NCBI GenBank assembly: GCA_001692895.1
Contig: KV748294.1
Span: forward strand, 65,370-129,369
Length of the DNA stretch: 64,000 nucleotides
Direction of reading: 5' to 3'
Origin: Cenococcum geophilum 1.58
Lineage: Eukaryota > Ascomycota > Dothideomycetes > Gloniales > Gloniaceae
The notes under the pieces were generated by a model that was not told the origin of the DNA, searched no databases, and saw nothing but the letters and a program-made list of their open reading frames with translations. Made by a program: the position numbers and the translations under genes. Shown in pieces: positions 395-58,891 of the stretch. Every line of letters begins with the position of its first letter. The first letter of the stretch is position 1.

Positions 395-3300
395 CTATAG
401 ATTAAATAGCGTACGCAGGATTATTCCTAATAGAAAGGGCGCTTAAATGGTTTAAACCCTATCTTACGGAAATACAGAATAATGGTATAACAACTACTAA
501 TTAGGAGGTATAATATATGTTTATAAGCTGGACTAGATTCGCGGAATAATTAATATAAATATTTAGGGACCTAGAAGTAATAACTATAGTAAAAAGAAAG
601 CTTTAGGACCTAATATAGCAAACCTTAGCAATTAAGTATATAACCTAGTTTTAGACATTAGCTATATAAGTTAAATGGAATAATAAGGCGCTTATGGTAT
701 AGTATAAATAGGGACTTAAGGCAAAAGTCTAGGATATAATTATTCTAATAGAAGATATAGATACCCTTAGGGAATTAATAGATTAAGCGATTAAGATTAA
801 TAATAGGATCTTCCAAAGGGAATAGTCTAAGAAAGGTTAGGATAGAGTTTTATAGTTATATAAGGTGTAAAGTACGTAATAACTAAAGCTAAATTAGAAA
901 CTATAGTATGGCGTAGAGCTAATAGACCTAAGCGGTACCAAAAAAAACTATAAGAGATAGAGAAAATAACTATAAAAACCTAGAAGTTAAGGATTAAGTA
1001 ATTATAGGACTAAAAAGCATAGGCTAAACTAAGGATCTTAATAGTAGAAAACGTTTAAGCGGACTTTATAGTAAAAGTAATAGTTTAAAAATAGAGCTTA
1101 CATAAATTGCGGAAAATAAGGTTATTTTACTAGAAACTATAAAAGTAGTTAAAGTTACTATGTAGTAAAGGGAACTAGACTAATAGTATATAATATATAC
1201 GTATAGAGGGATAATAGTATACTATAAGGAATAAAAGAGTGTTTAATTAAAAGCTTTACGTTTTGTTATAATAATATATACTAAATTTATAAAGACGCTA
1301 AGTATAGTGTAAGCTATTGGCTATAAAAGCTAGAGTTAAAAGGACTTAAAAAAACTAAAGAGTTAAATAAAGAATAAGATTAACTCTATAAGCTAGATTA
1401 AAATATTACAGTAATATATAGATAAAGATTAGTAACAATAATAATAGAGTTAGAGTACTTATTAATTAATAGTAATAAGGTAAAAAAGGGAACTAACTAG
1501 GGGTATCTAAACCTTAATAATGTAATAGAAGTAGAGACCGAAACCGCTATAAAGCAAGGTTTAGTAATAGGTATTATAACACCATTAGATACGATATCTA
1601 TCGTTTTATAAGATAAAAGGAGTAATATCTAAAGGTAATTAAGTAAGTAGATAACTGCTAGTGCTAGCTTACTACTTAATAAAGGCAAAAGGCTAAAGGC
1701 TTAAGATTTTTAAAATAAGATAAAAGATAACTAAGATTCTTAAAATAAGATAAGGTACGCTTAGGGACCTATAACAGACGATAACCGATAGAGTAGAGTA
1801 ATGGCTTAGTTTAGCGATATATAAATAAGCTTAGGACGAAGTTTCCTAAAGGTATAAAAATTTTAAAGCGAGATAAGTAAGATTTAAGACTCTTAAAATA
1901 AGATAAAAATACTAGTAAAGCCTAGTTAGACTAAGGCTAGAGTATAGCTTAAGAAAGAAGCGAGCTTAGGATTAAAGAATCTAAGGGACTAAGAATTTAG
2001 AGTATAAATAAGGACACCTATAAGCAAAAGGTAAGAGGCTTTGCTATAGATTAGGGAATCTATAATATAAACAGCAGTTAGATTAGGAGATAGATATATA
2101 AACCTAGAAAACTTACTAGGGGAACATAGTATTTAGCCTAAAGATTAAAAAGTTAATATTACAATTAAGAAGTAAGAGAACTTTAAAGATCTAATTATAA
2201 GACGTAAATAACGAGAAACTATAGATAAGTTTAGAGTAAGAATCTTTATATAGCAAGAATAGAAACTAGATATAAGATCTAGTATACTAAGTTATATATA
2301 AAATAGAGCACTAGTATAAATAATTACTAATAGGCTAAAAGCAGGCACGCTAAAAGCTAAGTAGTTTACTAAACTAAAAAATAAAGAGGATTTAGGGATT
2401 CTAACTAGGTTTAAGGAACGGTATATAAAAAGCTATTACAATATAGTAATAAGAAGATACTTCCTTACGGATAAACCGTATATACTCTAATAGCTATACT
2501 AAAGGTAGTATAGGTAAAGGCATAATAATAAATAGGAAGATTTCTATATATAGTTAGATAAGAGAGTTATTTAGGACCACTTAATTACGGAAAAAGCAAT
2601 AAATTATATTAAGAGAGCCTTAATTATAATATTAAAAGATTTAAAGTAATAATTAGAGAACTAAAGAAGCGAAAGACGTATCTTAATACCTACAAATAAA
2701 GTTATAATATTTAGATTAATACGATAGAGGTTTAAACTTAAGGACGAAGATAAGTTAAGAGTTAACCCAAAGCACCTAGTATACTATACGCTATTATAGA
2801 TTATATATATAGACAATATATATAAAATGCATAAAAATCCGAAAAAGAAAAACTAGAAATACCCTATAAGGATATATTGGGCGCTAGATAAGTAATAGTA
2901 TAGAAATACTAAGTATATATATAGCTAGCATCTAGTAGAAGTTTAGGAGTTAGAAAACTTAATATTTTAACTAAAAAGATTCTTTACTAAAAAATACTTA
3001 GATAAATAATAGTAGTGGGAATATCTAGAGAATATATATCTATAGTATATTAAGGATAAAAAGTAAATAAAGCATTAGCTAAAGAGTAAGTTAAGTATAT
3101 AAGGATCTAGCAGCTAATAATTAGGAAAAGTAGAGGCCTATAAAACTAGAGGGAGCTAGTAGTAGAGCCTTAGACCCTTAAAGGAATTTAAGGACAACAC
3201 CTAAATTTATAAGTTAAATAGTAAGATTAACAGTTTAAAGTATTAGTAGATAGTGGAGCAATAAGGAACTATATTTTACTAGTAGTAGTTAAAAGAATGG

Positions 3301-3538
3301 GGCTACCGCATAGGTAAAAGAAGCACCCTTATTTATTAGTTATAATTTTAGGAGATCCGATAGCCTATAGAGGAGGTATTATTAATCTTAAAATAGGACC
3401 TATTTAGATAACCATTAAAGGGAGATAAATTAAGATGTCTTTTAATATATTACTATTAGGGAATAATAAGGCAGTATTAGAAATGCTTTAGTTATAGGAA
3501 TATAATTTAAGGATTAATTAGATTATAGGTTAAGTTAA

Positions 3539-3724
3539 TGTTGGAAACACAGGGTGACTTACTAATAACGACTACTCGAGTAGGGTTATAGTAATGTTGG
3601 TTAATTCTTCTTAATAGGAATAAGGAAAGGGGTGAGGAACTTAAGGTTCCTTACCACGCTAGGGCCACGTTAACACGTAACGGCAATATGCTTCATATGA
3701 CAGCAACTTGCCTTATTCCCAACA
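3539..3724 (-). repeat. Copia-1 left (3') LTR
   Basis: 186 bp, starts TGTTGG and ends CCAACA, and aligns end to end with 9,614-9,799. Because the element reads on the minus strand this is its 3' LTR. Confidence 0.9.
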
Positions 3725-3900
3725 CTAGCAACTCTTCTTTTTATGGTTGCTATATATATATATATAAACAGACAGTATATAATAATACTAGACAATATAT
3801 AATAAAACCAGATAATATATAACAAAACTAGACGATATATAATAATGCGGTAGTTAGCAGAATTTAGTAGATAACGTGAAGACGGGTAGGCCGCTAAGAT
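3725..3900 (-). other. Copia-1 3' untranslated spacer with (TA)n run
   Basis: Low-complexity AT-rich stretch with a TA dinucleotide run at about 3,749-3,766 and three imperfect ~28-bp tandem units ending in ATATAATA-like sequence at about 3,775-3,846. The 20 bp or so beside the LTR (GGTTGC...CTAGC) is shared with the 3' end of Copia-2 near 31,437-31,463, so it belongs to the copia element. An 81-codon minus-strand frame crosses this stretch but encodes only TA-repeat peptide and is not called. Confidence 0.55.
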
Positions 3901-3924
3901 GCTAGTAGTAAGCAAGCTAATAGC

Positions 3925-4054
3925 GATTTTCTATGCCGGGTATGGAAAATCCTAATTGGTTAGCAGAAGTCTACACCGCCACTTAAATTAATTAGGTATG
4001 GCGCTCTTAGTAAGGATCTAATTAATTAAACAACTTTAACCGGCGGTTAAAGTT
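3925..4054 (-). other. Two-hairpin module in copia 3' region
   Basis: Two inverted repeats lie about 80 bp apart. The first is at 3,925-3,951 (arms GATTTTC...GAAAATC, 27 bp, nearly perfect). The second is at 4,032-4,054 (arms AACTTTAACC and GGTTAAAGTT around GGC). The same pair, in the same order and with similar flanks, occurs at 52,294-52,320 and 52,419-52,441 in gypsy Z. The second hairpin alone recurs at 36,501-36,523 in gypsy W. In all three the module sits between the end of pol and the 3' LTR. The function is unknown; an RNA 3'-end structure or a captured short repeat are both possible. Confidence 0.7.
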
Positions 4055-7000
4055 CTATAAGATTTTAACTTTTTTAAATTTCCCTCTTAACCCAACCTTT
4101 AACTTATATACGTAGAGTATTTATATTAACAAACGTCTCTAGTACCTTGTTTAAGTTTGCCTTTATTATTATATCTACTAGGTTATCTTAGCCATTAATC
4201 TATTAGATCTTAAAGAGTTCTTAACGCTTATAGGACTGCCGAAGTGCTATAATATTAATTATAAGACGCTTCTCCTTTATAGTACTAAGCTTAACTAAAC
4301 ACTCGTAGAGGGAATATAAGTCGGTGTATACGATTATAGGGATAGTAGGAAGTTTAAGCCAGTCTATAATTATTTTAAGGGTAGTTTCAATTGTAATTAC
4401 TATATTAACTTCGCTGACTATTCTATATATCTCTAACGCTAAAACGCTTTAAGTGACGCGCTTACTCTTAGTTAAGCTTTAATAAATAAGGTTGCCGTAG
4501 ATCATAAAGTTATTCTCTTTAGTAGATTTATTTGTAATAATAATCTTATATTCTAGCTAGGAGCTAAAATCTTTATTATTTATAAACGATTTATTAATAA
4601 ATATAAAGAGCTTAGTAGTAGGAAGGTTAATAGGCACATAGAGTAGCCCCCTGTTAAGATGGTTTATTTGCTAAGAAAGACGCTTATTTAGGGCAAGAAC
4701 GTCATCCTTAGTTAGTTCCTGGTATTAAGTGGCAACAGAGAGATTAAAGGAAGCCTTAGGTTAACAGATAGAAGCCACATAAGCTCTATAAGCGCGTTAC
4801 TCCACGTATCCTTGCTTTAGAGAATTAATATTAACAACGTTAATCTTCTTACCTTAACCCTTCTGGCGTAGAGTAATGGAGCCCTTATTTAGGGAGAGGA
4901 TATATCTATTAAAGAGTAATAGTATTACTAAGTTAAGTCTTTTCTTTGGCTTTGCTATAAGGTTTACCTTTACTAGCTTATCTTCTTTAAGAGCTAAGAA
5001 TTAGTTATCTCCTAAGATAATTATATTATCTGTTTGCATGCCGACGATTCTAAATAAAGTTCCTATAGTTATAATAAGGAAGCAGGGATTAAATATAGAA
5101 GTAGTTATTAAAAGCTTCTCCTTATAGTGCTTGCTGTAGGTAGCCCACCAATAAGTTCCTACCTCTGAAATTCCATATAATGGCTTAAGTATGACTATAA
5201 TCGTATCCTCAGGATATTGGTGGCGAATTTACTCTAGAAGGTATGCTAGTATTAAGCGCTAAAGGCGCGTCTCTAATTGGGTGTAGGCCTAAGTAATATC
5301 TTATAGGTAAACCGCTATTCTATTCTTTATTAAGGAGGGAGCTAGCGTAATAATAACTCGTTAACTAGCTCGTTAAATTATAGGGGATTACGTAAGGATT
5401 ACTTTCTTACCGTTATTGTTATAACCTTAAATGACTAGCCTTAACTTCTTAAATGGGGTATTAGTAGCTTTGCCTTTAATCTTATTAACTATTCTTAACT
5501 TAAATATGCGGACTCTATTGAACTTGGTAGGGTCATATTTCTTAAATTTAAAGACTCCTCTTATAATAAGACCGTCGATCTCCTACTTATTAGATGCTTA
5601 GAAAGGAGCTCCTAGAGTTATAATGTGGCCTTTTTTTTAGAGCTGTTTTGCGAGTTTAAAGTTAGCCTTCTTTTTAGCTGTTATAAAGGCTATCGATAGC
5701 TTATCTCCATTCTCGATAGTAGTAACGAATTGCTCTTCAAAATTAATAAGATGTTAGCAATTTCGTAATCCCTTTGGGCAACCTCTACCGCGTTATAGTT
5801 GCGGTATGTTTACTATAATTATATTAGAATCGCCTTCGCCTTTTAGAGCACGTTAATCGTAGTTCTCCTCTGGGGTATCCTCTAGGGTATCCTATAAAGG
5901 CTTAGAGCTATTATCCCTATAATAGGGCTTAATAATAGTTAAGTGGAATTAAGTGGGTCTATAGGGCATCTAAAAAGTGTAAGTTTAACTATCGATTATA
6001 ATAAGTTTATGTGGGCCTAACTATCCTCCCTTTTTACGCTATACGCGTACCTCCGATTAAAGTGGCAGATTAAGCGTAGTTAAGATATTTAAGCCATTTC
6101 TTATTCCTAGTGTGTTGTTAACCTAGCGCGTAGCGTAGAGATATTATACCTCCTTTATTGCCTTACGAATAGCCTTAGCTCGTTACGCAATAGAGGGAGA
6201 TAGTAGAGAATTATCAGTTATTTAAGGGTAGGCGCTAAAGACTAGCAATATAGGTACGAGCCTATCTGGGCTAGCGGTATTATTAATAGCCTTAATAGCT
6301 ATCTATAGGATAAGCTTTTTACTAGTACCCTCTAGTTCTAAAGAAATAATCTTATATGCGCGGTGTAATGGCGTATAATATTATTCTACTTTTCCGATAC
6401 TATTATATGCCTTAACGGGGACTTTCTTAACCTTAATTATTATTGCCTTTACCTATTATCGAAACTCTGTAGATAAGAAGTTCTTTCCTATATTATAAAT
6501 GATTTAATTAGGGGGTCCTAGGTAGATATTAATCTAGCATAATTAAAGAGTATCCTATACGTTCCTAGCTAATATATCTTTTAAAAAGCGTGCGGCTTGA
6601 AAGGAGGTTAAGAAGTTAATAACTTGGAGTACTGGCTTGCCGTTAAGATATATAACATCTATAATAATGCAGAAGTTAAAGTTATAGTTGTCTTTAAGAG
6701 TAAACTTAAATCGGCTAGGGGACTTCTGGTTCATTTAGTAGTGGTGGCAGTACTTTATAAGATATTTAATTACCTTAACCTTAACTTTATAACCTACTCA
6801 CTAAAGGACCCTAAGCAATTAGTGAATAGATGGGTGGCCAAAATGATGGTGTAGTTAACGTAACTTTGACTTAGTTAGGTAGCTCCAAGCAACGCTCCTT
6901 TTTGGCTATTAAAGGAGTAACTAAGGGTAACCCCACTTGCGTATAATAGGCACCCAATTATCTCCCTAGATAAGCATATTCTTAAGGTTATTAAGCTTAA

Positions 7001-9613
7001 TACCTAATTTATCTATATTTTGGATGCAAAATAGAAATGGGGTATTTATAGGGATAATGTGGAAAGTAATATATCCTAACGGGGTTTAGACCTTAATTAT
7101 GCTAAGAGAGATTACAGTACCCTTGCTAAAGCGAATTGTATGTTAGCCTACTGTTAATTAGTTAATTTAAATAGAGCTATTAAGCTACTAAAGAGCTTAA
7201 ACTTAAGGCTCTCCTGCTATAGATACTCCTGCGGCTCTAGTATCTGGTATAATGCTATAGAAGACGTTCGCCAAGTATCTGTTGTTAAAGGAGAATACGG
7301 AACTTTCCTTTAGCTTATTAAAGATATCTAACTTTATAATAGAATGGAGCGTAGATTAGTCATTAAGGATAGCAACGGTTTGTATGCTATTTACCTTACT
7401 ATACTTAGTAAAGTATTGGTCGGGAGAGTAGTCCTTAATTTTTATATCCATAAGAAGCTATTCGGCCTCGTCAACCTTACCCTTAAGATCTTCTTCGCCT
7501 TTATATTAAACTAGGAAGTTTTGGAAGTAGGCCATAGTAACCTCTTAGTTTCCGACGTTTTGTATACTCTGGCGAAACCTATTATATGCCTCCTTTTGTC
7601 TATTAAGAGGGTGTCTAGTTAACTAGCAATTTGGCTTCTTATAAACGTAGCACTTCTTCTAACGATTGCTCTAAAGTGAACCTCCACAAGGACCTCTATA
7701 ATTGCCTTATAGTTAACGTTAATTATACCCTTTACCGTATCCCCTACCACGTCCACTATATATTTAATCAGTCCAGTTATAATTATATTGGTCGGCCGGG
7801 TTAATTAAGGTAGGTTAGAGTTAGGCGTTAAATTGCTGTACTTCTTAAGAGCGTAGAGCGGTACTAATAGAGGATCTTAATTAAGTATATACTCTTTTAT
7901 AAGTACTTATAGGGTTAAAGAGAGCGAGATTATATTCTTTAATACCTCAGCATGCGCTAATAACTTAATCGCGTAAGCTAAGGTCCTCTTAATATAATTT
8001 AGATAAACCACGCTAAATTATCTAAAGTTAATTAAAGAGCTTTTAAAGATAATTAAGCCGAGAGATACCTGGGTTTATAGCAATGATTCTTAGGAAGGTA
8101 GTCTCTCTCCACTCCGATATATATTGCTGCTTATTCTCTTTTAATTTAAAGTGGCATCTTATCTTATATATTATTTGGTTAAAATTATATCCTTTTCCTA
8201 CCAAACGATTATAATAGAAGGTACTAGCGCGGCCCTTAAGCATAACGGAATAGGCGTTATGATATTAGTCAGGTTCTAATCTAACCTTTTAGTAATAGTT
8301 ATAGAAGATACGCAGCTTCGAATTAAGGATATTATATAGTTTCCTACTAAACTTCTTCTCCTGGTCCGTATAGAGCTTTGTAAGCTCTATAAGCATTTTT
8401 AAGGTGCCTCTAAGTAGTATTAGACCACGTTAAAATTGTATTAGAGATTAAGATGGGGATTGCTTTATAGGCTGCAGTAGAGATATAGAGCTTAGTAGAA
8501 CACGGCGTGGTACCTAATCTTCCTATAGTAGAGTTTAAAGGTTATTAAATCGCGAAGTAAGGGGATCTTGCGCTTGCTTTTAAGGGGTAGTAGTTAACGT
8601 TGCTAGTTGAATTAGTGGATCCTAGGGAGCTGGAGATAAAGGTAGAAGCAATGGATGTGGAACGTGAGAACTTGTGCCTGGAGTAATAGAATTAGAGTGC
8701 GTCTCTATTGGCGTATTGTTTGGATTCTATTATAAGTTAAGCTTCCTCTTAGTATATAGTTGGTGCTTAACCTCTTATAGAGTCTATTCGTGCTCTTCTT
8801 TTGCGTTAATAATTTACTTCTGAATATTATCTTTAATAGCACCCCTATCTATAGGAATAAATACTCTATTCTCCCGAAGGAAGTTATAGAAGTCTTATAC
8901 AACGTCCTTCTTCGTAAGAGCTTATATTTCCTTTATCTATCTAACAAAGTCCTCCTTTATATAACACCATAGCTCGGTATCGTTATATTTACTGTCTATA
9001 TAGTATACTATACGGTATACTAAGAATCCGTTTAGGTCCTGTTCCTTAGCGTTTATAGGGTTAATGTCTATATCCTATATCTCCAGGTTAATGCTTTTCT
9101 TGTACTTCTTTGGGTAGGTTGACGCTATAGTAGGTATAGAATTAATGGGGTGTCGTACGTTAAAGGTAGGTAGGGTTTTTAGCTTTGTAGAATCTTATAG
9201 GTTTACTGTTAAAAGGTAGGCAATTAAGATGTTGTTGACGCGTTTTGGACATTAACTTTGGGACTATAGGTTTAGTAATACTTTTAACCTAAAGTACTTA
9301 ACCAAATCTTTGTATGCGTAGTTGTTTAACGCGTTTCAGACGTTAATTTTGGGACCATAGGTTTAGTGATACTTCTAACCTAAAGTACTTAACTAAATCT
9401 TCGTAAACGTAGTTGTTCTATATAATAGACGCAACTTAGTATCTCCTAGTACTTAGTAACACTTCTGTTACTAGTTTTCCGTAAGTTTAAGGTAGTATAG
9501 TATCGCCGGGATCTATTCTATATGAGCGTATATAGCACCCCTATACGAGACTGTCTCTTCTGTTCGAAAACCTAGCTGCTCTATAGTTGACTGTATATTT
9601 AACCACTAATTAG

Positions 9614-9799
9614 TGTTGGAAATATAGGGTAACTTACTAATAATGACTACTTAAGTAGGGTTATAGTAATATTGGTTAATTCTTCTTAATAGGAATAAGG
9701 AAAGGGGTGAGGAACTTAAGGTTCCTCACCACGCTAGGGCCACGTCGACACGTGACGGCAATATGCTTCATGCGACGGCAACTTGCCTCATTCCCGACA
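9614..9799 (-). repeat. Copia-1 right (5') LTR
   Basis: 186 bp, TGTTGG...CCGACA, the same length as the left copy at 3,539-3,724 and differing mainly by transitions. It is less mutated at its right end than the left copy. Confidence 0.9.
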
Positions 9800-10551
9800 G
9801 TTAATATTAGAGATACGCGATAATGTAAGATATAATAATAAACTAAGTTAGTATAATACTAAGCTAGAGCAATATATAAGGAAACTAAGAAAAGGTTAGG
9901 TTATATACTAAAGAGATACTATAAATATAGTAAGAAGCTATAGTTACTAAAAAGTGAAAAGCTATTAGAATATATAGTATAGGACTATAAAATAGAGTTA
10001 GAACTAGGAATAAATCTAAAGTTTTTCCTAACCTATAAGCTTACTAAAGAAGAAGGTAAAGTATTAAAAGAGTTTATCTAGAAGAACTTATAAAAGGGAT
10101 ATATTAGACTATTACAGTTATTAGCGGGTTATCTAGTACTATTCGTACTAAAGAAAAACGGAAAACTTAGGCTATGTATTAACTATAGATAGTTAAATAG
10201 TATTACTAAAAAGGATAGGTATTCTTTACCCTTAATTAGCGAAATCTAAGATAGGATCAGTAATGTGTAAATCTTTATAAAAATAAATCTAAGATAGGTA
10301 TACTATTAGATTAGAATTAAGGAAGGTAACGAATAAAAGGCAGCCTTTAGATTAAGAGAAGGACTATATAAACTATTAGTTATATAATTTGGGCTTATAA
10401 ACGCACTAGTAATGTTTTAGAAGCGTATTAATAATATATTAAGAGAGTACTTAGATAAATTTGTTATAGTATACCTTAATAATAATATTATCTATTTAAT
10501 AACTAAGGAAGAATACGGGGAATACGTTAAATAGGTTTTAAAGAGACTATA

Positions 10552-25538: not shown

Positions 25539-25703
25539 TGTCGGGAATGAGGCAAGCGGTCGTCACGTGTCGCCGCGGCACTAGCGTGGTGAGGAGTCTT
25601 AAGCTCCTCGCCCTTCCTTATTCCAACAACAAGCTTTATTAACCAACATCACTATAACCTACTCGAGTAGTCGTTATTGGTGAGTCACCCTATATAACCG
25701 ACG
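25539..25703 (+). repeat. Copia-2 left (5') LTR, nearly unmutated
   Basis: 165 bp, TGTCGG...CCGACG. It keeps C and G at about 18 sites where the right LTR has T or A. It lies against the unique URA5 island. Confidence 0.9.
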
Positions 25704-28700
25704 CTAATTAGTGGTTGAATACACAGTTAACCATAGAGCAGCTAGGTTTTCGAATAGAAGAAACAGTCTTATATAGGAGTGCTATATACGCTTATATGGA
25801 ATGGATCCCGGCAATACTATACTACCTTAGACTTGCGGAAAACTAGTAACAGAAGTATCACTAAGTACTAGGAGATACTAAGTTGCGTCTATTACGTAGA
25901 ACAACCACATTTATAAAGATTTAGTTAAGTACTTTAGGTTAGAAGTGTTACTAAACCTAGGGTCCTAAGTTAACGTCTAAAACGCGTTAGAATAACCATC
26001 TTAATACCTTTAGTGTACCTTCGCAGACCGCAGGATTATAATTACTACCTAACTATATATTAAACAACCTTTATTTTCCTTAATTTTTTTTATTAAAATG
26101 TGTTAAACAACCTTTAATAACAGCTATTATAGCGTTAACCTACCTAAAAAAGTATAAGAATAACATTAACCCAGAAATAGAGAATAGAGCTATAATTAAC
26201 TTCGTAAACGCTAAGTAATAGGACCTAAATGGATTCCTATTATACCGCATAGTATACTATAAAGACAGTAAATACAATAATACTATGCTATAGTATTATA
26301 TAAAGGAGAACTTTATTAGATAGATAAAGGAAACATAGGTTCCTATAAATAAGGATATTATATAGGACTTCCATAACTTCCTTTAGGAGTATAGAGTATT
26401 TGTCCCTATAGATAGGGGAGTTATTAAAGATAATATTTAGGAGCATATTATTAATATAAAAGAAGAGCATAAATGGACTCTATAAGAGATTAAGTATTAA
26501 CTATACACTATAAAGAAGCTTAACTTATAATAGAATCCAAGTAATATACTACTAGAGACGTATTCTAATTCCATTACTCTAGGCACGAGTTCTAACATTC
26601 TATATCTATCGCCTCTACCTCTGTCTTTAGTTCTTTAGTATTTACTAATTTAACCCGTAACTTTAACTACTACCCCTTAACCTAAGCAAGTATAAGATCC
26701 CCTTGCTTTACAGCCTAATAACCTTTAAACTCTACCATAGTAGAATTAAGTACTATACCCTATTTTATTAAGCTCTACATCCCTACTATAGCCTATAATA
26801 TAATCCCTACCTCCTTAATCTCTAATATAATTTTAACGTGGCCTAGCGCTACTTAAAGGCATCTTAAAGTTACTTACAGAGCTTATAAAGCTCTATTTAG
26901 ACCTAGAGAAGAAGTTTAGCAGGGAACTATATAATATCCTTAATTTAAAGCTGCGTATCTTCTATAACTATTACTAAAAGGTTAAACTAGAACCTAACTA
27001 ATATTATAACACCTATTCCGTTATGCTTAAGGGCCACACCAGTACCTTCTATTATAATTATTTAGTAAGAAAAGGATATAATTTTAACCAAATAATATAT
27101 AAGATAAGATGCCACTTTAAAATAGAAAAGAATAAGTAGCAGTATATATTGGAGTGGAGAGAGACTACTTTTTTAAGAATTATTGCTACAAACCTAAGTG
27201 TTTCTCGGCTTGATTATCTTTAAAAGCTCTTTAATTAACTTCAGACAATTTAGCGTGGTTTATCCGAATTATATTAAGAGGATTTCAGCCTATATAATTA
27301 AGTTATTAGCGTATACTAAGGCATTAAAGGATATAACCTTACTTTCTTTAATCCTGCAAATACTTATAAAGAAGCGTATACTTAATTAAGATCCTCTATT
27401 AGTACCGCTTTACGCTCTTAGAAAGTATAGCAATTTAACACCTAACTCTAACCTACTTTAATTAACCTAGCCAACCCGGCTAACCAATATAATTATAACT
27501 GGACTAATTAAACATATAGTAGTCGTAGTAGGCAATATAGTAAAGGGTATAATTAATAACTATAAGGTAAAGGTGGAGGTCCTTATAGAGGTTTATTTTA
27601 AAGTAATTACTAGAAAAAGTACTATATTTATAAGAAACCAAATTACTAGTTAACTAGGTATTCTCTTAATAAATAAAAGGAGGTATATAATAAGTTTCGC
27701 TAGAGTATAAGAAATATTAGAAATTATAAGGTTACTATAGCCTACTTCTAAAGCTTTCTAGTTTAATATAAAGGCGTAAAAGATCTTAAGGGTAAGGTTA
27801 ATAAGGCCAAATAGCTTCTTATAGATATAGAAATTAAGGGCTACTTACCTAACTAATACTTTACTAAGTATAGTAAGGTAGATAGCGTATAAACCGTTAC
27901 TATTCTTAATAACCAATCTACGCTCCATTCTATTACAAAGTTAAATATCTTTAATAAGCTAAAGGAGAGCTTCGCGTTCTCCTTTAACAATAAATACTCG
28001 GCAAATATCTTCTATAGTATTATGCCAGATACTAGAGCCGCAGGAGTATCTATAGCAAAAGAACCTCAAGTTTAAGCCCTTTAGCAGCTTAATAACTCTA
28101 TTTAAATTAACTATTTAACGGCAGGCTAATATACAATTTATTTTGGCAAGGGTACTATAATCTCTCTTAGCACAATTAGGGTCCAAACCCCCTTAGGGTG
28201 CATTACTTTCCATATTATCCCTACAAATACTTTATTTCTATTTTGCATTAGAGATATAAACAAATTAGGTGTTAAGCTTAATAACTTTAAGAATATGCTT
28301 GTGTATGGAGATAGTTAGGTACCTATTGTACGCAAATAGGGTTACCCTTAGTTGCTCCTTTATTAACTAGAAAAGAGTATTACTTAAAGCCACCTAACTA
28401 AGTTAGAGTTATATTAACTACACTATTATTTTAGCTACCTATCCGTTTATTAATTACTTAGGGTTCTTTAGTAAGTAGGCTATAAAGTTAAAGTTAAGGC
28501 AATTAAGTATCTTATAAAGTACTACTATTACTACTAAATAAACTAGAAGTCCCCTAGCTAATTTAAGTTCATCCTTAAAGATAACTACAACTTTAACTTT
28601 TATATTATTGTTAATGTTATATATCTTAGCGGCAAGCTAGTACTCTAAGTTATTAACTTCTTAACCTCCTTCTAAGCCGCATATTTCTTAAAGGATATAT

Positions 28701-31463
28701 CAGCTGGGAATATATAAGATACCCTATAATTATACTAGATTAATATCTACCTAAAACCCCCTAATTAAATTATCTATAATATAGGAAAAAAACTTCTTAT
28801 TTATAGAGTTTTAATAATAAACAAAGGCAATAGCAATTAAGGTTAAGGAAGTCCCTATTAAGGCATATAATAGTATTAGAAAAGTAGAGCGATATCACGC
28901 GCTATTACGCCGCGTATATAAGATTATCTCTTTAAAACTAGAGGATATTAGCAAAGAACTTACCTTATAAATGGCTATTAAAGCCGTTAATAATTCCGCT
29001 AGCCTAGATAGACTTATACCTATATTACTAGTCTTTAGCGCCTACCCTTAAATAACTAATAATTCTTTACTATTTCCCTCTATTATATAATAAGCTAAGG
29101 CTATTTGTAAGGCAATAAAGGAGGTACGACGTCTCTACGCTATATACTAGGTTAATAACGTACTAGGAATAAGAAATGGCCTAAATACCTTAACTACGCT
29201 TAATTTACTACTTTAGTCTAAGGTATATATATGGTGTAAAAAGGGAGGGTGGTTAGGCCCATATTAACTCATTACAATTAATAGTTAAACTTATACTATT
29301 TAGATGCCTTATAGACCTACTTAATTCTATTTAACTATTATTAAGCCTTACTATAAGGATAATAGTTTTAAGCCTTTATAGGATACCCTAGAGAAGAACC
29401 ACAATTAACGTGCTTTAGAAGGCGACTACAATTCTAATATAATTATAGTAGAGGTGCTATAACTATAACGCGGTAGAGGTCGCCTAAAAGGATTATAAAA
29501 TCGCTAACATCTTATTAATTTTAAAGAGCAATTTGTTGCCGCCATTAAGAATAAAGTTAAGTTATTAATGGCCTTTATAATAGCCAAGGAGAAGGCTAAC
29601 TTTAAGCTTATAAAATAGCTTTAAAAAAAGGTTATATTATAACTCTTAGAGCTCCTTTCTAAGTATTTAATAAGTAGGAGATCGATAGTCTTATTATAAG
29701 AGAAGTCTTTAAATTTAAGAAGTATAACCCTACTAAGTTTAATAAAGTTTATATCTTTAAGTTAAGAATAGTTAATAAGATTAAAGGCAAAGCTATTAAC
29801 GCCCCATTTAAGAAATTAAGGCTTATTATCTAAGGTTATAATAATAATAGTAAAGAGGTGATTTTTATATAATCTTCTATAATTTAATAAGCTAGTTAGC
29901 AAGTTATTATTACACTAGCTCCCTCCTTAATAAAGAATAGAATAGCGGTTTATTTATAAAATATTACTTAAGCCTATACCTAATTAGAAACGTACCTTTA
30001 GCGCTTAATATTAGCATACCTTTTGGAGTAAATTCGCCACTAGTATCCTAAAGATATGATTATAGTTATGCTTAAGCCATTATATAGAATTATAGAGGCA
30101 GAAACTTATTAGTAGGCTACCTATAACAAGTACTATAAAGAGAAGCTTTTAATAACTACTTCTATATTTAATCCCTACTTCCTTATTATAACTACGGGAA
30201 CTCTATTTAGAATTGTCGGCATATAAACTAATAATATAATTATCTTAGGAGACAACCAATTCTTAGCTCTTAAAGAAGATAAGCTAGTAAAGGTAAATCT
30301 TATAGTAAAGCTAAAGGAAAAGCTTAATTTAACAACACTATTACTTTTTAATAGATGCATCCTCTCCCTAAATAAGGATTCTATTACTTTACGCCAGAAG
30401 GGTTAAGGTAAGAAGATTAACGTTATTAACGTTAATTCTCTAAAGCAAGGATATATAGAGCAACGCGCTTATAAAGCTTATATTACTTTTATCTATTAAC
30501 TTAAGGCTTCCTTTAATCTCTTTATTGCCGCTTAATACTAGGAACCAACTAAGGATAATGTTCTTACCCTAAATAAGCGTTTTTTTTTAAATAAATAAAC
30601 TATCTTAACTGGGGACTACTCTACGTGCCTATTAATCTTCCCACTATTAAGCTATTTATATTTATTAATAAATTATTTATAAATAATAAAGATTTTAGCT
30701 CCTAGCTAAAATATAAGATTATTATCGCGAATAAATCTACTAGAGAGAATAACTTTATAATCTACGGCAATCTTATTTATTAAAGCTTAACTAAGAGTAA
30801 GCGCGTTACTTAAAGCGTTCTAGCATTAGAGATATATAAAATAGTTAGCGGAGTTAATATAGTAATTACAATTGGAACTACCCTAAAGATAATTATAGAT
30901 TGACTTAAACTTCCCGTTATCCCTATAATTATATACACCGACTTATACTCCCTCTATAAGTATTTAGTTAAGCTTAGTACCACAAAGAAAAAGCGCCTTA
31001 TAATTAATATTATGGCACTTTAGCAATCTTATAAACGGCGAGAACTCTTTAAGATTTAATAGATTAACGGCTAAGACAACCTAGTAAATATAATAATAAA
31101 GGTAAACCTAAATAAGGCTCTAGAGATATTTATTAATATAAATACTCTATATATATAAGTTAAAGGTTAGGTTAAAAGGGAGTAGGAGCAAGACTTATAT
31201 TATAATAGCAATAGTTAATAGGCACGTACTATACGCTATTATAGCTTAGCAGAATTTAGCAAAAGTTTATAGCTTAGCAGAATTTAGTAGAATTCTATAG
31301 CGTGGCAGAATATAGCAGATTACGGTAGATTACGGCAAGTTGCGGTCTTATAACTAGGCTTAATCGGTAGGCGTATATAAGGTATTATAGGATAGTCCTA
31401 TAACACTACGCTAGTCAAGTAGTATTTATATATAGATGGCAACCATAAAAAAAGAGTTACTAG

Positions 31464-36335: not shown

Positions 36336-37697
36336 CTACCCCCCCTTCTATAGAGGCGGAGCTCTGGCGACGCTATGGTTACTATATATATATAGAAGGG
36401 ACACTTAAGGTATAGAAAAGAAGAAAAGGGGGGTATTACTAAAGGCTTAAAATAACGTTATATAATAAGGCTTGGCATCTAAAAATCTAACTAATTAGAT
36501 AACTTTAACCGCCGGTTAAAGTTTCTAGATATTTTAATAATATTCCAGTTACGTAATCGCACTTTACTATAATCTAACGGCAATTTAATAGTAATTTACC
36601 CTTACGTGGTAATATATAACGGTTTAACTCTATAAGGGCTCCTATAAAGGATTAGGTATAAAATCTCTACTTAAGCCTAGTTTCTTTAGGTTCGCGTAGT
36701 AAAAGTCGCTAATTAAATCCTTTGTATTTTTAAAGTCTTCCTATAGATACTATTCTAGCTAATTTATATTGAATCCTATATATATAGCTCTATAGTAGAG
36801 CCGTTATCCTCTACTTTTGCTAAAGTATTTAGAGTTAATAATTTGTTTAACGGTCTACTCTTTATAGTTCTTATCTTCGTTTTTATTTTAGATTGATACT
36901 AGTAGGGGTTTAGGCTATATCTACCCCGGTAAAGGGTTAGGCTAATAAAGGTATAGTAGCTATAGGTAAAATATAGGCTATATCCCATAAGTAGCTAGGG
37001 TAGGTAGAAGTTCTAGCTTATATACGGCTCCCCTATTAATAACTTATTTAATTAGGTAGGGGCTAAGGTTCTTATAATTAAGTAACTTTATAGGCCTCTA
37101 TATAGAGATATTACGTATATTTAGCTATACCCAGTTACTAATATACATCTCCGGTAGTGGCGTTTTATAATAGTTAGCGAAATAGGCCTACTTTACTTAA
37201 GCCTAGGCCATTTCTCCCTTATAGTAGTTAAGTAGGTTTTTTATATAGTCTATATACTAGTTAGTAAGTAGTATCTTAAGGCGTTTTTTATATAGTAGTT
37301 TCTTATTAATAGGTTCTAGTAGCTCTATACTAGATTAGGGGTAATAACCCTTATTCGCGAAGAACGGGGTAAGTCCTATAGTAGTTAAGACGTAGTTATT
37401 CGCTGTAAATTTACCTAGTAGGAGGTAATCTACCCAGTTATTTTAACTATAGGCAACTACCTATCGTAGGTACGCTTTTATACTAGTATTAGCGTTTTCT
37501 AGTTACTTAGTAGTTTTATAGTAAAAGGATATAGATATCTTAACGGAGATGCTAAGGTGTTAGTAGATTTATTTTTATATATTATAATTAAATTATATAC
37601 CTTAGTTGGACGTAATTAAGTTAGGTAACCTATATAGTCGGTAAACTTCATAAAGGAAGGCGTTAGTAACGTCGCTAATAGTTACGCCTTTAGTTAG
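36143..37697 (-). mobile_element. W: gypsy 3' part, split by G-b
   Basis: Minus-strand gypsy fossil. A putative 3' LTR at 36,143-36,335 is followed by a polypurine tract (minus strand, 36,336-36,348), a 3' region with one copy of the AACTTTAACC hairpin (36,501-36,523), and integrase C-terminal remains (about 36,900-37,600) clearly related to the integrase of Z near 53,200-53,400. G-b inserts at 37,697, so the 5' part of W should lie beyond G-b, outside the window. Many breaks. Confidence 0.65.
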
Positions 37698-51975: not shown

Positions 51976-52162
51976 TGTCACAGTGCTGCAATAAAGTAGA
52001 CTAAATAACTACGTTATGGTATAAAGAGGGGAAGAAGGTGGAAAGGGGGTATTGTATACAAATAGTAGGGCCGGCCGCTAAGTCGCTAGTGGTGGGCTAG
52101 CTAATAGTAGGGAATAGTATAAGATAGTATGAAACAGTATACGTCAGGTTAGTGCCGTAATA
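51976..52162 (-). repeat. Z left (3') LTR
   Basis: 187 bp, TGTCACAGTGC...GCCGTAATA, aligned end to end with 58,705-58,891 with only a handful of transition differences, so Z is among the younger inserts. Confidence 0.9.
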
Positions 52163-52293
52163 GTACTCCTCTCCCCTAGATAGTTTGGTCCCCAAACTAA
52201 ATAGATAACTTAAAAATAGGCAGTATACGGGGTTGCCTATTTTCTACCATAAAGATATTAGTTCCGCTTACCGCCCTTAACTAAGCTAATGGT

Positions 52294-52441
52294 GATTTTC
52301 TATACCAGGCATGGAAAATCCTAATTAGTTAGTTTAGTAAGTAAGGTCGGTAGAACTCCATACCGCCACCTAAATCGGTCCGTATGGCGTTTTTTAGTAA
52401 GAATTTAGCTAATTAGACAACTTTAACTGCCGGTTAAAGTT
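52294..52441 (-). other. Two-hairpin module in gypsy Z 3' region
   Basis: Inverted repeats at 52,294-52,320 (arms GATTTTC/GAAAATC, 27 bp) and 52,419-52,441 (arms AACTTTAAC/GTTAAAGTT) in the same order and with the same kind of flanks (CTAAT before the first, CCTAATT after it) as in Copia-1 at 3,925-4,054. It lies between the chromodomain and the 3' LTR. Confidence 0.7.
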
Positions 52442-55400
52442 CTATAACATCTCAACCACTACAAATTTTAATGTGGTGGTCGGCCGTGACTTCGGCGTAA
52501 CTTTTCCTTATCTCATGCCCAGTCTAGGGGTCCTAGCTTTTTAGGGTGTTGCTTATAAAAGCGCTATATAGCTTATTTACAACCCTTTAGGTCTTCCTCT
52601 AGCTGCTAAGTTATATCCTTATAATATTTCCATTTAATCTTATAAGTTAGGCCCTAGGGGTCTTCGTTGTGTATATTAAGGATTTTCTTAAACTCCCATT
52701 TATCTTCTATATTGCCGTTATTATCTCTTTCTGCCACTCGTCCTTATATATTACGGCGCTCTACGGTATTAATATTTACTTAGCTAGGGATCTCTTTAGC
52801 AGCTTAGAGGCGGACCTTAAATATATAAAAGGATTTGTTTACTCAGATGTAGTCCGGGAGGTCTACTATAACTACCCCTTAGTATACTGCGAGTACGGGG
52901 TACAGGCCGTCCTATTTATCGTCCCATTTCTTCTTAGGTCTATTTATCTTTATATTTTCTAAGCTAACCATAACTATATTACCTTCGTAGAATAACGCGC
53001 TCTTATCCCTATGGGTATTAGTATTGTCTTTATAGCGTTACTATAAAATCCAGGCTAGGGCCTTAAGCTATATTAATATCCGCTTAAAGCGGTTGGCTAT
53101 AGAGTCTATGCGGAAGAACTCCTTCTTTACTTATACTGATAGTGTTAGTAGATAGGGGCTAGTAGGCTTAATTCCGAGGTAAGGGTTAAAGCTATAGTTT
53201 ACAAAAAACGGGGAGATGCCTATATTCTTATTAACTTAGTTATTTATAATAAACTTGGCGAGCGGTAGGTAGTTAACCTAATTATCCTATATAAAGCTAA
53301 TAAAAGCACAAAGGTATTTATTTACGGCGGCGTTAATAATTTCGGTTTAGCCGTCCGTTTTTAGGTGCTAGGCTAAGCTTAGTTGTAAGGTTGTCTTAAG
53401 GCGTTTACTTAGTTATTGCTAGAAGTTGCTAACAAATTATATACCGTAATTGGAGATAATTGTGCTTGGTGCACCGTAGAGCTTATATACGTTATTAATA
53501 AAGCTATTAACTAACTTCTTTATTAAGAGTCCTATTACTAGAATAAGGTATTATATTTTAGTTAGGCGGTCTATAATAATAAGGATATATTTATATACCT
53601 TGCCGTAGCGTTAGTATACTAGTAGCGTTATAATATAGTTAATCGAGATATNGGTTTATAGGCGGGTGGGTAATTCTAGTAGCTTTAGGAAACCAGGCGG
53701 GGTAGAATAGGGGGTTTTAGTGTAAAAGTATAGGGCATAGTTTTTAACGAAGGTAGCCGTGAACTGGGAGATTCCTGGCTACTAGTATATTTAGTTTAAG
53801 AGGTTAAGAGTCTTAACCCAGCTAGGGTAACTAGCGGGGCCGCTACTATAAGAGCAATAGGTAACTTCTAGGCGGAGGTCTAGGGCGTTAGGGATAAAGA
53901 GACGTTAGCGGAAGTAGATCTATCCGTCAATAATACTGCATTCTAATTTATCGTAATAAAGTAATTTCCTAATTTTCTTTGGCTAATGGCGAGCTTTCCA
54001 ATTATATAGGGCTGCCACTATATCTCTTACGAGTTCGTTCTCCTAGTATTTTAGCCAGATTAACTCGTCTAGTGACTTTTCGGCTATTTTGGGGTCTAGA
54101 GCGGCTATAAACTCCGCGTTATTAGAGTTACGGGACTTATATAGTAATTCTTTTAAGATTATAGGGTTAACTTTCTAGGGCGGTATAACGACTTAGGCTC
54201 GGTAGCGGAGGCGTTTATTATTAGCGTTCTTAGGCCTTATTTCTAGTAGCCGGCTTAAGGTATTAGGGAGCGTAGCTTTGCTACCGGGTCTATATATAAT
54301 TATAAAGTTAAACTATAAAAGGAACTCTGCCTACTAGACTTGGCGCTAGTTTAGCTACTTAGTAGTTATAAATGTCTATAGGTTCTTATAGTCGGTAATA
54401 ATTTTAAACGGCTCCTTAGTCCCTTATAGCTTAGGACGCTATTTCTCTAAAGCCTTAATAATAGCTAGGAGTTCTTTATTATAGATCTTATAGTTATATT
54501 TTAGCGCGGAGTACTTTACGGAGAAGAATGTAACCAGTCTTAATTTTCCGTTGTTGTTATACTAGGAAAGGACTCCGCCGGAAGCCTAATTTAATACGTC
54601 TGTTTTTACCACTATTTTCTTTATATAGTTATAGTATGCTAATACTGGTGCTGAAGTAAAGGCTCCCTTAAGGGCTTTAAACAATTTGGCTTGTTCTGGT
54701 CCCTATAGCCATCCGATATCCTTCTTTAGAAGTTTTATTATAGGTATAGCGATGGCAGAGTAGCCTTAGATAAATTGTTGGTAGAAGTTCGCGAAGCTAA
54801 GAAATTATTATAGTTCTTTAATTGATGTTGGGTCCTTCCATTTCTATAAGGCCTGTATCTTCTTAGGGTCTATAGTTATGCTATTAGTTAAGATAATTAA
54901 GCTAAGGTATTTTGTTTTAGTAGAGTAGAACTTAGACTTATTAATATTAATCTAAAGTCTAGCATTGCCGAGTCTTTAGATGACTTCATTTATATACTTA
55001 ATATGCTTGGCGCGTGTTTTAGAAAAGACAAGGACGTTATTAAGGTAGGTAGTGCAGTAGTCGTTAAGGGCGTTGTGTAGAATATAGTTAATATAGTTTT
55101 AGAACGTAGCGGGTGCGTTATAGAGGCTAAATAGTATAATTAGCATCTTATAGAGTCCGAACTGGGTAATAAATACTATAAGCTATTTATAGCCCTCCAT
55201 AATCCAGATCCGGTTAAACGCAGCAATTATATTAAGTTTAGTAAAGTACTTAGCGCTATAAAGTGCGTCAAGTGTCTTGTGGATTAGTAGTAGTGGGTAT
55301 TAATTCTTAATAGTAACTGTGTTTAGGCCTTAGTAGTTATAATATATTTATATACCGCCGCTAGGCTTAGCAGTAAGGAGGAGTAGTGTGGTAGCTAGTA

Positions 55401-58400
55401 AGGTCAATTCGTGAATAAAACCCTTATCTAGTATCTTATCAATCCACTTCTTTATACACCTAAGTTTAGCAGGTAAGAGTGGTCTATTTTTATAGTATAG
55501 GGCCTAGTTTCCGGGGGTAATCTTAATTTTATAATCCTATGGTCGGTAAGGGGGCAGCTTATCTACATTCTTAGGGAGAAAGTACTTAATATATTTACTA
55601 AACTCCTTTAGTAGGTATTATAGAATGTCTTTACGGGTTAATCCTGGTTTGCCTTTTAGGAATTTTTTAACATTAATGTTAACTATCTTCCGACGTAAAA
55701 GCTTAGGTTTGGTTTTTAGATTTGTCTTAAGGAAGTTGTAGAAATAAGGGGGGAGCGCTTTATAGGCTTCCTTTATTATATAGTCGCCTTCTACCAGCCA
55801 GCAGAAAGACCTTTTTAATAAGTTTGGTACTTCTATTAGGCCTATAGGCAGCTCTTTAAGCAGCTATCGGTGCTTATTTTATTTAACTAGTTCTATTAGC
55901 TCCGCTATATAGATCCTTATTACCTTTACGTCTTTTTATTTATAGAACTGGGTAAAATTAATAGTATAGGTGCATTTAATATCGTCTAGGTTGGGGCGTA
56001 TCTGGCTCTCTGGTGCTACGGCTGGGCTAGTATAGCTTAGTCGGCCCAAGGGGGCGGAAACGAGGCGGTGGCCCTATACGGTACGCGCGGGAGATAGGTG
56101 TAAGGTTAGGCGTTGTGGTGGCGCGGTTTCTATTATCTAGGTCTTAGTAGTTCTATAGCTAGTCCTTACTATAACGTAAGCTATAGTATGCGTATATAGT
56201 ATATGGCTTAGTTCTAGGTGTTGGGCTAGGCGGCTAGGGTTTAAATAGTGCCTAGGTTAGGGTTAGTTTCTTAATAGTAGCGGCGTAAAGCAGACCTTCT
56301 TTCTTAGTCTCGGTAGGGCTGGCTAGCCTATTATTTTGGTCTTAAGTACTAGGTTAGTCCAGTCTTCTACTATCTCGTTTCTTTATAGCTATATAGGCTC
56401 CCCTTTATTAGAAACGTCTTTTACTATTAAGGCTTTATATATAGTTCTAGGCACTAGGCTTAGTAGTACTAAGTGTCCACATAGGGCGTCCCTACTAACG
56501 TCGGCTATTCCCCACAGGAGGTAGTGCCTAGAGTAGTAGTCTAAGTTAAAGCAGATCTTAAGTTTCCTAAAGCTGGGACGGGGCTCGTGCTTCTAAAGCC
56601 AGGGCATACTTAGGATAATTAGGGTAGTAGGCGAGAGTTTAGTAATAAAAAAGAGCATAGCTTTAGTATAGAGGCTAATTAATATTTAGGCGGTAAAGTA
56701 GTCCGTAATAAGCGAAGTTGGGATACTATCTGCGAGGCGCAGTGGCCTAGGTGCTAGCAGCTTCTTAGTTATAACGTTATACTTTNTTANAATAGACTCT
56801 NCGTNNGTAAATGCTATTNNAGTACTACNNGAGTNTACTAGGCTTACNNTATTAATATAAACTTAGGGGTATAGGTTACGTAATAAGGAGAGTTGGGTTT
56901 AAATAAGGATTAATTTCTTGTTACTATTTGCTAATCTAAGATTAAGTGGTAGTTTATTAATAGAAAAGACTAATTAATCTAGTAATAGGGACCTAATCTT
57001 CTCGTCTTCCTCCTTATATGGTTTAGACCCTTAGGCGCGACTTAGTTTAAGGGTTTACCTTTTAATAACTGGGGTATAAGGCTGTCTTGGCGGGGCGGTC
57101 TAGTGTCCGTCTGGCTGGTAGTGTCTGTCTTTATTTTAGTTAGGGTATAGGAAAATAATACCTCGCTAACGACGTGGCTATATTTATATTCGCTAGCGCG
57201 AAGTCGCTAATACTAGGCGTTGTTAACGGGTTAGGCTCCTATATAGGGCATAGTTTAGAGTAACTAAGCCGTAGGGTTAAAGGGGGGGGGGTTATCCGCC
57301 GCGGCTATAATAGGCTCTATAGTCGCCGCGTCTATAATAGACTCTACAATTGCCGCGTCCGCGGTTATTTATTTGCGTTATTTAATAGGGTGGCATTAGG
57401 ACTAGGTTTACTATCTTAGTAGGGTTATAGGTATCCTTTTAGTGGCCGGGTAGGCTATAGGCAAGGCATAGTCTATTATTAATGCGGTGCTTACGCTCCG
57501 TGTCTAAGATTCTATTAAGGTCTATAGGTTCTTTAGTTACTGCTAGGGTTAGGGTTAATATAGGGGTAGGGGCTTGGGTAGGTAGGTAGTGGTTAGCGTT
57601 CTTTTTAAGGTTAGCTTAGTGTGTATAGTTTACAAGGTTCTTAGTAAATATATCTATCTACTTACTCTAACCTGTATAGTCGCTGTTATTAATTTTATAG
57701 GCTAGTCTAAGTACCAGCTCTTCTATCTTTGGAGAGATAAACTTTTAGAGTAGGTCTACCTTCTATTCGTCTGTCTTCTTGGCGCGGACTATTAGCTTAT
57801 TAAGCTCTCCCTTCTAGGACTAGTAATTACGCTCGCCTTAGGGGAAATAGTTAAGCTTATTCTTTATAACCTAGGTTATATTAAGGACCTTATAGTGGGC
57901 AGTAAGGTCTTTAAGCATATCTTCCTTGGTAGGCCATTTCCACGCAGATATATTATTTAGGTTCTTGTGTATAAGCTCTAGGCCCTACTTAATAAACTTA
58001 TAGGCCTTATCCTCTAGTATATTTGAGATGTAAAGGATCTGGGACTAAACTGTGTTAAAGTAGTCCTAGTCCCGGTTAAAGACTCCCTTAATCTTAATAT
58101 ACTAGGTTTTAAAATTAGCTTATCATTCTAGTAGGGTGCCTTTTCCGCTAAATATTGGCGGGTCTTTAGATCTCCGTTTTTTCTGCTGGGTTACTACTAT
58201 TATTATAGGGGTTAATTGTTTTAGAACGGTAATAGTCTCTGCCTAGGAGTTAATAGTTCCTATTTAGGAAGCGATAAGGGCACTAAGGTTTTCGTTAGCT
58301 TTCTTATTGGCGGTGTTTATATTATATATATACTGTAGTCCTACTTTAATGTTATTAAGGAACTTATTGGTATAGTTAATAAGGGTAAGGTAAGCTTTGC

Positions 58401-58704
58401 TGGGCTTAAAAGTCTTAGGGTACGGTGGGGAGCGGCGGATTGTCCACGCGATATTGGGGTATATCTCTATAAATAGGTCTGCGAAAACATCGCGGGGGTT
58501 CTAGGTTTCGGCCATTTTGGCGTCGTTAGTGTCGCCTATCTAGGCGCTAGGTAAAAACTAAGGATTGTTCTAGGACTGTACTGGGGACGTATTAGTTTTA
58601 GTAGAGGCGCGTGTAGGTCGCAATTACTTTAGGGTGGAGGTTAATTGGCTAGGGTACGGGGAATCAGTAATCGCGACGGGGCGTAAATTAAAGATACCAC
58701 AAAC

Positions 58705-58891
58705 TGTCACAGTGCTGCAATAAAGTAGACTAAATAACTACGTTGTGGTATAAAGAGGGGAAGAAGGTGGAAAGGGGGTATTGTATATAAATAGTAGGGC
58801 TGGCCGCCAAGTCGCTAGTGGTGGGCTAGCTAATAGTAGGGAATAGTACAAGACAGTATAAAACAGTATGCGTTAGGTCAGTGCCGTGATA
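58705..58891 (-). repeat. Z right (5') LTR
   Basis: 187 bp, TGTCACAGTGC...GTGCCGTGATA, immediately followed by the GGTTC target duplication. Confidence 0.9.

Follow-up and report, generated by a model that had tools for sequence, protein, structure and literature searches.

It is common practice to regard the superfamilies of LTR retrotransposons as distinct lineages, each with control regions of its own. A preliminary description of DNA from the fungus Cenococcum geophilum, whose genome of 177.57 Mb is 10.4% GalEa (PMC5445492), placed two inverted repeats, here called P1 (27 bp) and P2 (23 bp), near the 3' end of both a Copia and a gypsy element. The question raised by this locus is what the two palindromes are and how elements of two superfamilies came to share them. 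We propose that both act in cis, as palindromic DNA sites that many LTR retrotransposons of this one fungus carry close to their 3' ends. In the many copies, small 3' blocks are seen to cross between Copia and gypsy elements, and one of these blocks changes symmetrically. The copies form a natural data set on how such blocks spread and on whether protein binding or pairing maintains the symmetry.

Elements and palindromes in the window

The window is the whole stretch of 64,000 nucleotides that was analysed. Its features are given below.

3539..9799, minus strand: Copia A (GalEa-type), LTRs 3539-3724 and 9614-9799, LTR pair 91%
3534-3538 and 9800-9804, flanks of the element: 5-bp target duplication GTTAA of Copia A
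3917..3921, minus strand: inverted CCAAT position on the opposite side of Copia A P1, reads ATTAG (CpA to TpA form of ATTGG), alignment columns 42-46
3925..3951: P1 palindrome of Copia A, 27 bp, aligned with 29 other copies
3955..3959, minus strand: CCAAT pentamer on the pol-proximal side, 3 bp from P1 of Copia A, alignment columns 4-8
4032..4054: P2 palindrome of Copia A, 23 bp
9605..9614, minus strand: ACTAATTAGT at the inner end of the Copia A 5' LTR, matches CHSeq1 of fungal GalEa Copia (PMC5445492)
25537..31623, plus strand: Copia B, same group as Copia A, without P1 or P2, module-free junction at about 31181-31188
36501..36523: P2 alone, gypsy W family
51976..58891, minus strand: gypsy Z, LTRs about 51976-52162 and 58705-58891, LTR 94%, target duplication GGTTC
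52073..52107, minus strand: GC-rich tail of the P1 block in the gypsy Z 3' LTR, palindrome absent; second copy at 58802-58836
52294..52320: P1 in gypsy Z
52419..52441: P2 in gypsy Z, one arm mismatch

Both palindromes were near-perfect and were found in Copia A and gypsy Z where they had been described. P2 alone in gypsy W was likewise found, and the second Copia element of the same group, Copia B, had neither palindrome, as had been reported. The window DNA was AT-rich, with CpA and TpG strongly depleted (0.39 of expected) and TpA in excess (1.48), which is the mark of RIP-type mutation.

Copia A has a 186-bp LTR, the GTTAA duplication and a length of 6.26 kb, in agreement with fungal GalEa Copia elements, which are described with LTRs of the form TGT...CA of 138-311 bp, a 5-bp target duplication and a length of 5.4-7.0 kb (PMC5445492). 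Directly after the 5' LTR these elements have CHSeq1, which is CTGATCAGT or CTAATTAGT (PMC5445492), and at this place Copia A reads ..ACA then CTAATTAGT and Copia B ..ACG then CTAATTAGT. For the QTDD motif, a Copia A fragment, which is a mutated copy, reads MQTDN. The Copia A fragments are mutated and no Copia family was found for them in Pfam; the assignment as GalEa Copia was based on the LTR, the target duplication and the CTAATTAGT site. Of two Pfam sets of ten entries each, one entry in the first (L046) and three in the second (gypsy Z, L047 and L052) were above cut-off, the others giving no match or sub-threshold matches. One fragment of the first set, the tenth, is not contained letter for letter in its locus L041; it was without a match and no conclusion depends on it. 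These matches support two superfamilies, with a Ty3-type RNase H fragment in gypsy Z (PF17919 and PF17917), an integrase H2C2 zinc domain in L047 of the gypsy W family, a Tf2-type SH3 domain in L046 and a Copia RVT_2 domain in L052. Gypsy Z and W were classed as Ty3/gypsy by the Ty3-type RNase H and the integrase zinc domain, respectively; the gypsy W copies L043 and L047 matched at 89% and 87% over 1.55 kb.

Genome-wide abundance and carriers

The phenomenon proved larger than had been claimed. In the source genome of the window (177.2 Mb scanned, 162 contigs), P2 was found with at most two mismatches at 3188 places (backwards control 1) and P1 with at most three mismatches at 1537 places (backwards control 0), and P2 was exact at 1207 places. 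Exact scans of viral contigs for P1 and P2 gave nothing; this collection is viral and therefore has little bearing on other fungi. The loci L001-L030 are the best Copia A matches (40 of 3093 candidates scored), L031-L049 the first exact P2 matches on contig C1, and L050-L064 the first exact P1 matches.

In the placed loci P1 and P2 were 3' of pol or inside an LTR. Carriers were found in three or more Copia groups and in several groups of gypsy elements, and the claim that the sequences are common to both superfamilies stands. The first 19 exact P2 sites on contig C1 were in eight Copia elements (A- or B-like), three Z-like, two W-like and four elements of another gypsy-related group, with two unassigned. 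L041, L042 and L046 are one group (88-92%), to which L044 is related at 75-81%, and L034 and L048 are a group of their own (88%); these two and, among the P1 loci, L050 and L056 are not placed in a settled family. The 15 exact P1 sites were judged to lie in eight Copia 3' regions and five copies of an LTR-like repeat family, with two unsettled; the Copia placement of L051, L053, L055 and L062 was based on the start of the adjoining LTR, whilst for L057, L058 and L060 the basis was an RNase H-like fragment read in the sequence. The blocks share a common descent, and their spread among element families is well supported.

Several features of single loci were also observed. L041, L042 and L046 have a frame ending ALEIS-stop immediately before P2, and nearly identical DNA precedes P2 in the Copia loci L031 and L033, which suggests that the P2 block there came from a gypsy 3' end. 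L052 is a Copia with few mutations; it has open stretches of 152 aa (RVT_2) and 193 aa, and its P1, after pol, is inverted. L051, L053 and L062 have long repetitive frames (PQQ-, RGGP- or TST/VEVL-rich) upstream of P1, apparently a minisatellite within the element.

Separation of P1 and P2

P1 was near P2, at 75-125 bp start to start, in 13 of the 19 sampled P2 loci, and in two of these 13 (L034 and L048) the P1 block was inverted relative to P2. P1 was not found in six of the 19 P2 loci, and P2 was not found in 14 of the 15 exact-P1 loci. The proposal of one two-hairpin module is thus given up: P1 and P2 are separable units, whether the Copia B form is ancestral or a loss.

Module-bearing Copia elements track Copia B to one point, then have about 250-290 bp that are absent from Copia B, and then B-like sequence again. 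With the module-free junction of Copia B as the query, 29 of the 40 scored copies (1282 candidates) crossed the junction, ten ended at query position 102-128, at or just past the junction, and one was otherwise partial. Three Copia copies read at this junction had neither palindrome (L071), P1 only (L069) or both (L070), which supports the earlier view that the module was swapped into, or moved among, elements, in that it has come or gone separately from the remaining element. No clean target duplication was seen around the P1 block at this one Copia junction comparable with module-free copies. In the L052 Copia family P1 was inverted relative to pol, and the block was spanned by all 40 scored copies (1726 candidates). 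The 3' region of the module-free Copia (about 31240-31300 in the window; L071) has a tandem unit of about 28 bp in variable copy number (L071 by eye); this unit is similar to an inverted form of the CTGCC repeats that adjoin the P1 block.

The P1 block in an LTR-like repeat

In L059 and L054 the P1 block lies within a solo-LTR-like repeat that starts with TGTGACGG and ends with CCGTCACA or a mutated form of it, and the repeats are flanked by the 5-bp target duplications GTAAT and TTATT, respectively. L061, L063 and L064 have about 700 bp of further shared sequence on the right side only, as expected for a 5' LTR. When the TGTGACGG repeat was compared with the other loci by BLAST, the P1 block and 46-127 bp of homology were found in most of them, and 157-208 bp, reaching the CT-rich tract, in L053, L055 and L062 and, with two of the three queries, in L051. 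Homology to the Copia 3' regions was 70-208 bp at 75-94%. The two GC-rich tail copies in the gypsy Z LTRs matched the tail beside Copia A P1 at 83% and 80% over 35 bp. A palindrome inside an LTR was found for P1 in the TGTGACGG repeat family and not seen for P2, and the loci read had one P1 per repeat or 3' region. As the P1 block occurs also inside the terminal repeats of another family, the elements appear to have traded control sequences.

L044 has an LTR-like stretch with the GC-rich tail and the downstream part of the P1 block, without P1 (74-75% over 135-158 bp). A tRNA-like origin of the P1 flank was rejected, with no tRNA genes in eight loci, and a Helitron 3' hairpin was dismissed on visual inspection.

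The core common to all P1 blocks was about 46-50 bp long and consisted of CCAAT, 3 bp, P1, 3 bp and ATTGG; the Copia elements also have the GC-rich tail. Among the 30 aligned P1 blocks the first pentamer was CCAAT in 18 and CTAAT in 12 (30/30 counting the CpA-to-TpA form), and the second was ATTGG in 6, ATTAG in 22 and ACTAG in 2 (28/30 ATTGG or ATTAG), where CTAAT and ATTAG are what CCAAT and ATTGG become by a CpA to TpA change. The pentamers are at a fixed distance, 3 bp from each edge of P1, and we take them to be a candidate composite site of the NF-Y type. The asymmetric flanks of the P1 block were retained in both orientations, with the block inverted in the L052 family and next to P2 in L034 and L048, as expected of a DNA site.

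A proposed regulatory block passed between element families

We favour, with moderate confidence, the explanation that recombination near the 3' end has carried two units from one element family to another, a regulatory LTR block that contains P1 and the palindrome P2. P1 stands in the middle of a block that is also found within an LTR, probably in its U3 (promoter-side) region. The block comprises, in order, a CCAAT box, the 27-bp palindrome, an inverted CCAAT box, a GC-rich tail and, in certain families, a CT-rich tract. P2 lies between pol and the 3' LTR. On this reading the blocks have moved between gypsy and Copia by recombination there, most likely by RNA template switching during reverse transcription, and would most likely raise or time transcription through the binding of host DNA-binding proteins. 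Template switching, the direction of transfer, protein binding and the transcriptional role are inferred, as is a regulatory function of the blocks in general.

A DNA regulatory block is preferred because of the LTR-like repeat, the CCAAT boxes, the position upstream of the CT-rich tract and the asymmetric flanks kept in either orientation. However, a promoter element would hardly be expected where the block stands in Copia and gypsy Z, on the 3' side of pol and not within the LTR. A near-perfect symmetry of 27 bp is long for one dimeric protein, and the symmetric change from GCC/GGC to CCC/GGG is a prediction of pairing, needless for a fixed protein site. Next to P2 the CCAAT box is weak, with ATTGG in 1, ATTAG in 20 and ATTAA in 1 of 22 copies.

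Symmetry, folding and alternative explanations

The main alternative is that P1 and P2 are hairpins in the 3' RNA or cDNA, acting in packaging, dimer formation, the context of plus-strand priming or stability, and that a common host factor explains the sharing between Copia and gypsy. We regard this as possible, if somewhat doubtful. The placed copies sit where the 3' part of the transcript would be. Such a location is compatible with a role in the DNA and with one in the RNA and does not discriminate between them. P1 exists in two forms, ATGCC-N-GGCAT and ATCCC-N-GGGAT (10 and 40, respectively, of the first 50 sites listed), and with a pattern allowing both and little else GCC/GGC or CCC/GGG was symmetric in 904 of 905 P1 matches and mixed in one. 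RIP cannot produce this double transversion. At the same place within the L052 family, L052 and L068 have the ATGCC form and L066 and L067, which were picked because their form was already known, the ATCCC form. In a pair count of 30 P1 copies (29 distinct), 15 rows of which were selected as exact matches, 94.1% of the cells were paired as compared to at most 45.8% when slid, and 18 cells were changed on both sides as compared to 8.7 in shuffles.

Other results speak against hairpins. Pairs with a two-sided change (3 versus 2.8) and further pair types (7 versus 7.2) showed no excess over shuffles. The P1 symmetry extends to centre-adjacent positions, unpairable in RNA, in 26 of the 29 rows, and one family retains an uncompensated P1 mismatch (C-C in L048 and L065, C-T in L034). 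Non-palindromic flanks were retained when the block was inverted. Folding of the RNA, as suggested earlier, was moderately better than shuffles for gypsy Z (z -2.40, 3 of 200 shuffles as good), whereas Copia A folded no better than shuffles (z -0.94, 32 of 200 as good). The best fold of Copia A contained the P2 hairpin and only part of P1 and that of gypsy Z contained P1 and not P2; folding of the window copies is not decisive. At gathering score Rfam gave 0 matches in the window and four loci.

The P2 arms read TTAA or TCGA. This was not taken as strong evidence of compensation, since mixed arms were common (205 of 1456 exact sites; 1207 + 205 + 44) and CpG followed by CpA decay could give TTAA. 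That Copia and gypsy of one fungus share a pairing-dependent 3' signal, with compensatory hairpins, one common factor and one exchanged replication or packaging address, appears unlikely.

It is still less probable that the blocks are without a current role, as old shared 3' sequence that hitchhikes and has its symmetry restored by arm-to-arm copying instead of selection. Most copies read were heavily mutated in the CpA to TpA manner, and the mixed P2 arms were not far below the roughly 264 sites expected from independent arms, both of which fit such an origin. However, the palindromes and CCAAT boxes were the best-conserved parts between families, while the intervening sequence had diverged or been lost. 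The idea of a tiny independent mobile repeat inserting into retrotransposons, which had been raised in the preliminary description and would explain the P1 block in both orientations and several families, is highly improbable, as the block is homologous to part of an LTR and embedded in longer LTR homology in some families and the comparable Copia junction had no clean target duplication.

Comparison with known systems

No description of P1 or P2 was found in searches of open-licence papers, and when the palindrome arms were searched as words in open-licence papers, the match in the fungal paper among those listed was a PCR primer. A close likeness to the regulatory block favoured here is found in plant Sirevirus Copia elements, which have palindromic repeated LTR motifs (PMC2829016; later work PMC10760457 and PMC5311732). 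Like P1 and P2 they are palindromic and conserved; they belong to the regulatory region of the LTR retrotransposon, lie upstream of a promoter region and are kept between strongly diverged families. Most have a CGG-CCG core, and P2 has CCG-N-CGG. The Sirevirus motifs are from plant Copia, 11-17 bp long and present in 8-9 copies among the table rows listed (PMC2829016), whereas P1 and P2 are single, longer, common to Copia and gypsy in a fungus and often outside the LTR. Palindromic LTR regulatory motifs are thus known in plants, and the sharing across superfamilies and the symmetric change are the new part.

In yeast Ty3, part of the 3' UTR is required in the minimal retrotransposing element, and the account of these sequences in PMC11381356 has no palindrome pair shared with Copia. 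Template-switch chimaeras, in which reverse transcription fuses two parent elements, are reported in PMC1950507; as presented there, these are large complex elements in grasses and not exchanges of small 3' blocks.

Like P1 and P2, the GalEa Conserved Hairpin Site is palindromic and conserved, and it occurs in Copia elements of the kind studied here; an extended form is conserved between distant families within some species (PMC5445492). It lies just after the 5' LTR, where a primer-binding site would be expected (PMC5445492). P1 and P2 differ in that they are at the 3' end and not after the 5' LTR, have other sequences and reach gypsy, and they are not mentioned in the hairpin-site account of PMC5445492. 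The published site CTAATTAGT itself was present in both Copia elements of the window, at 9605-9614 and 25703-25712, the preceding LTR base in Copia B being G.
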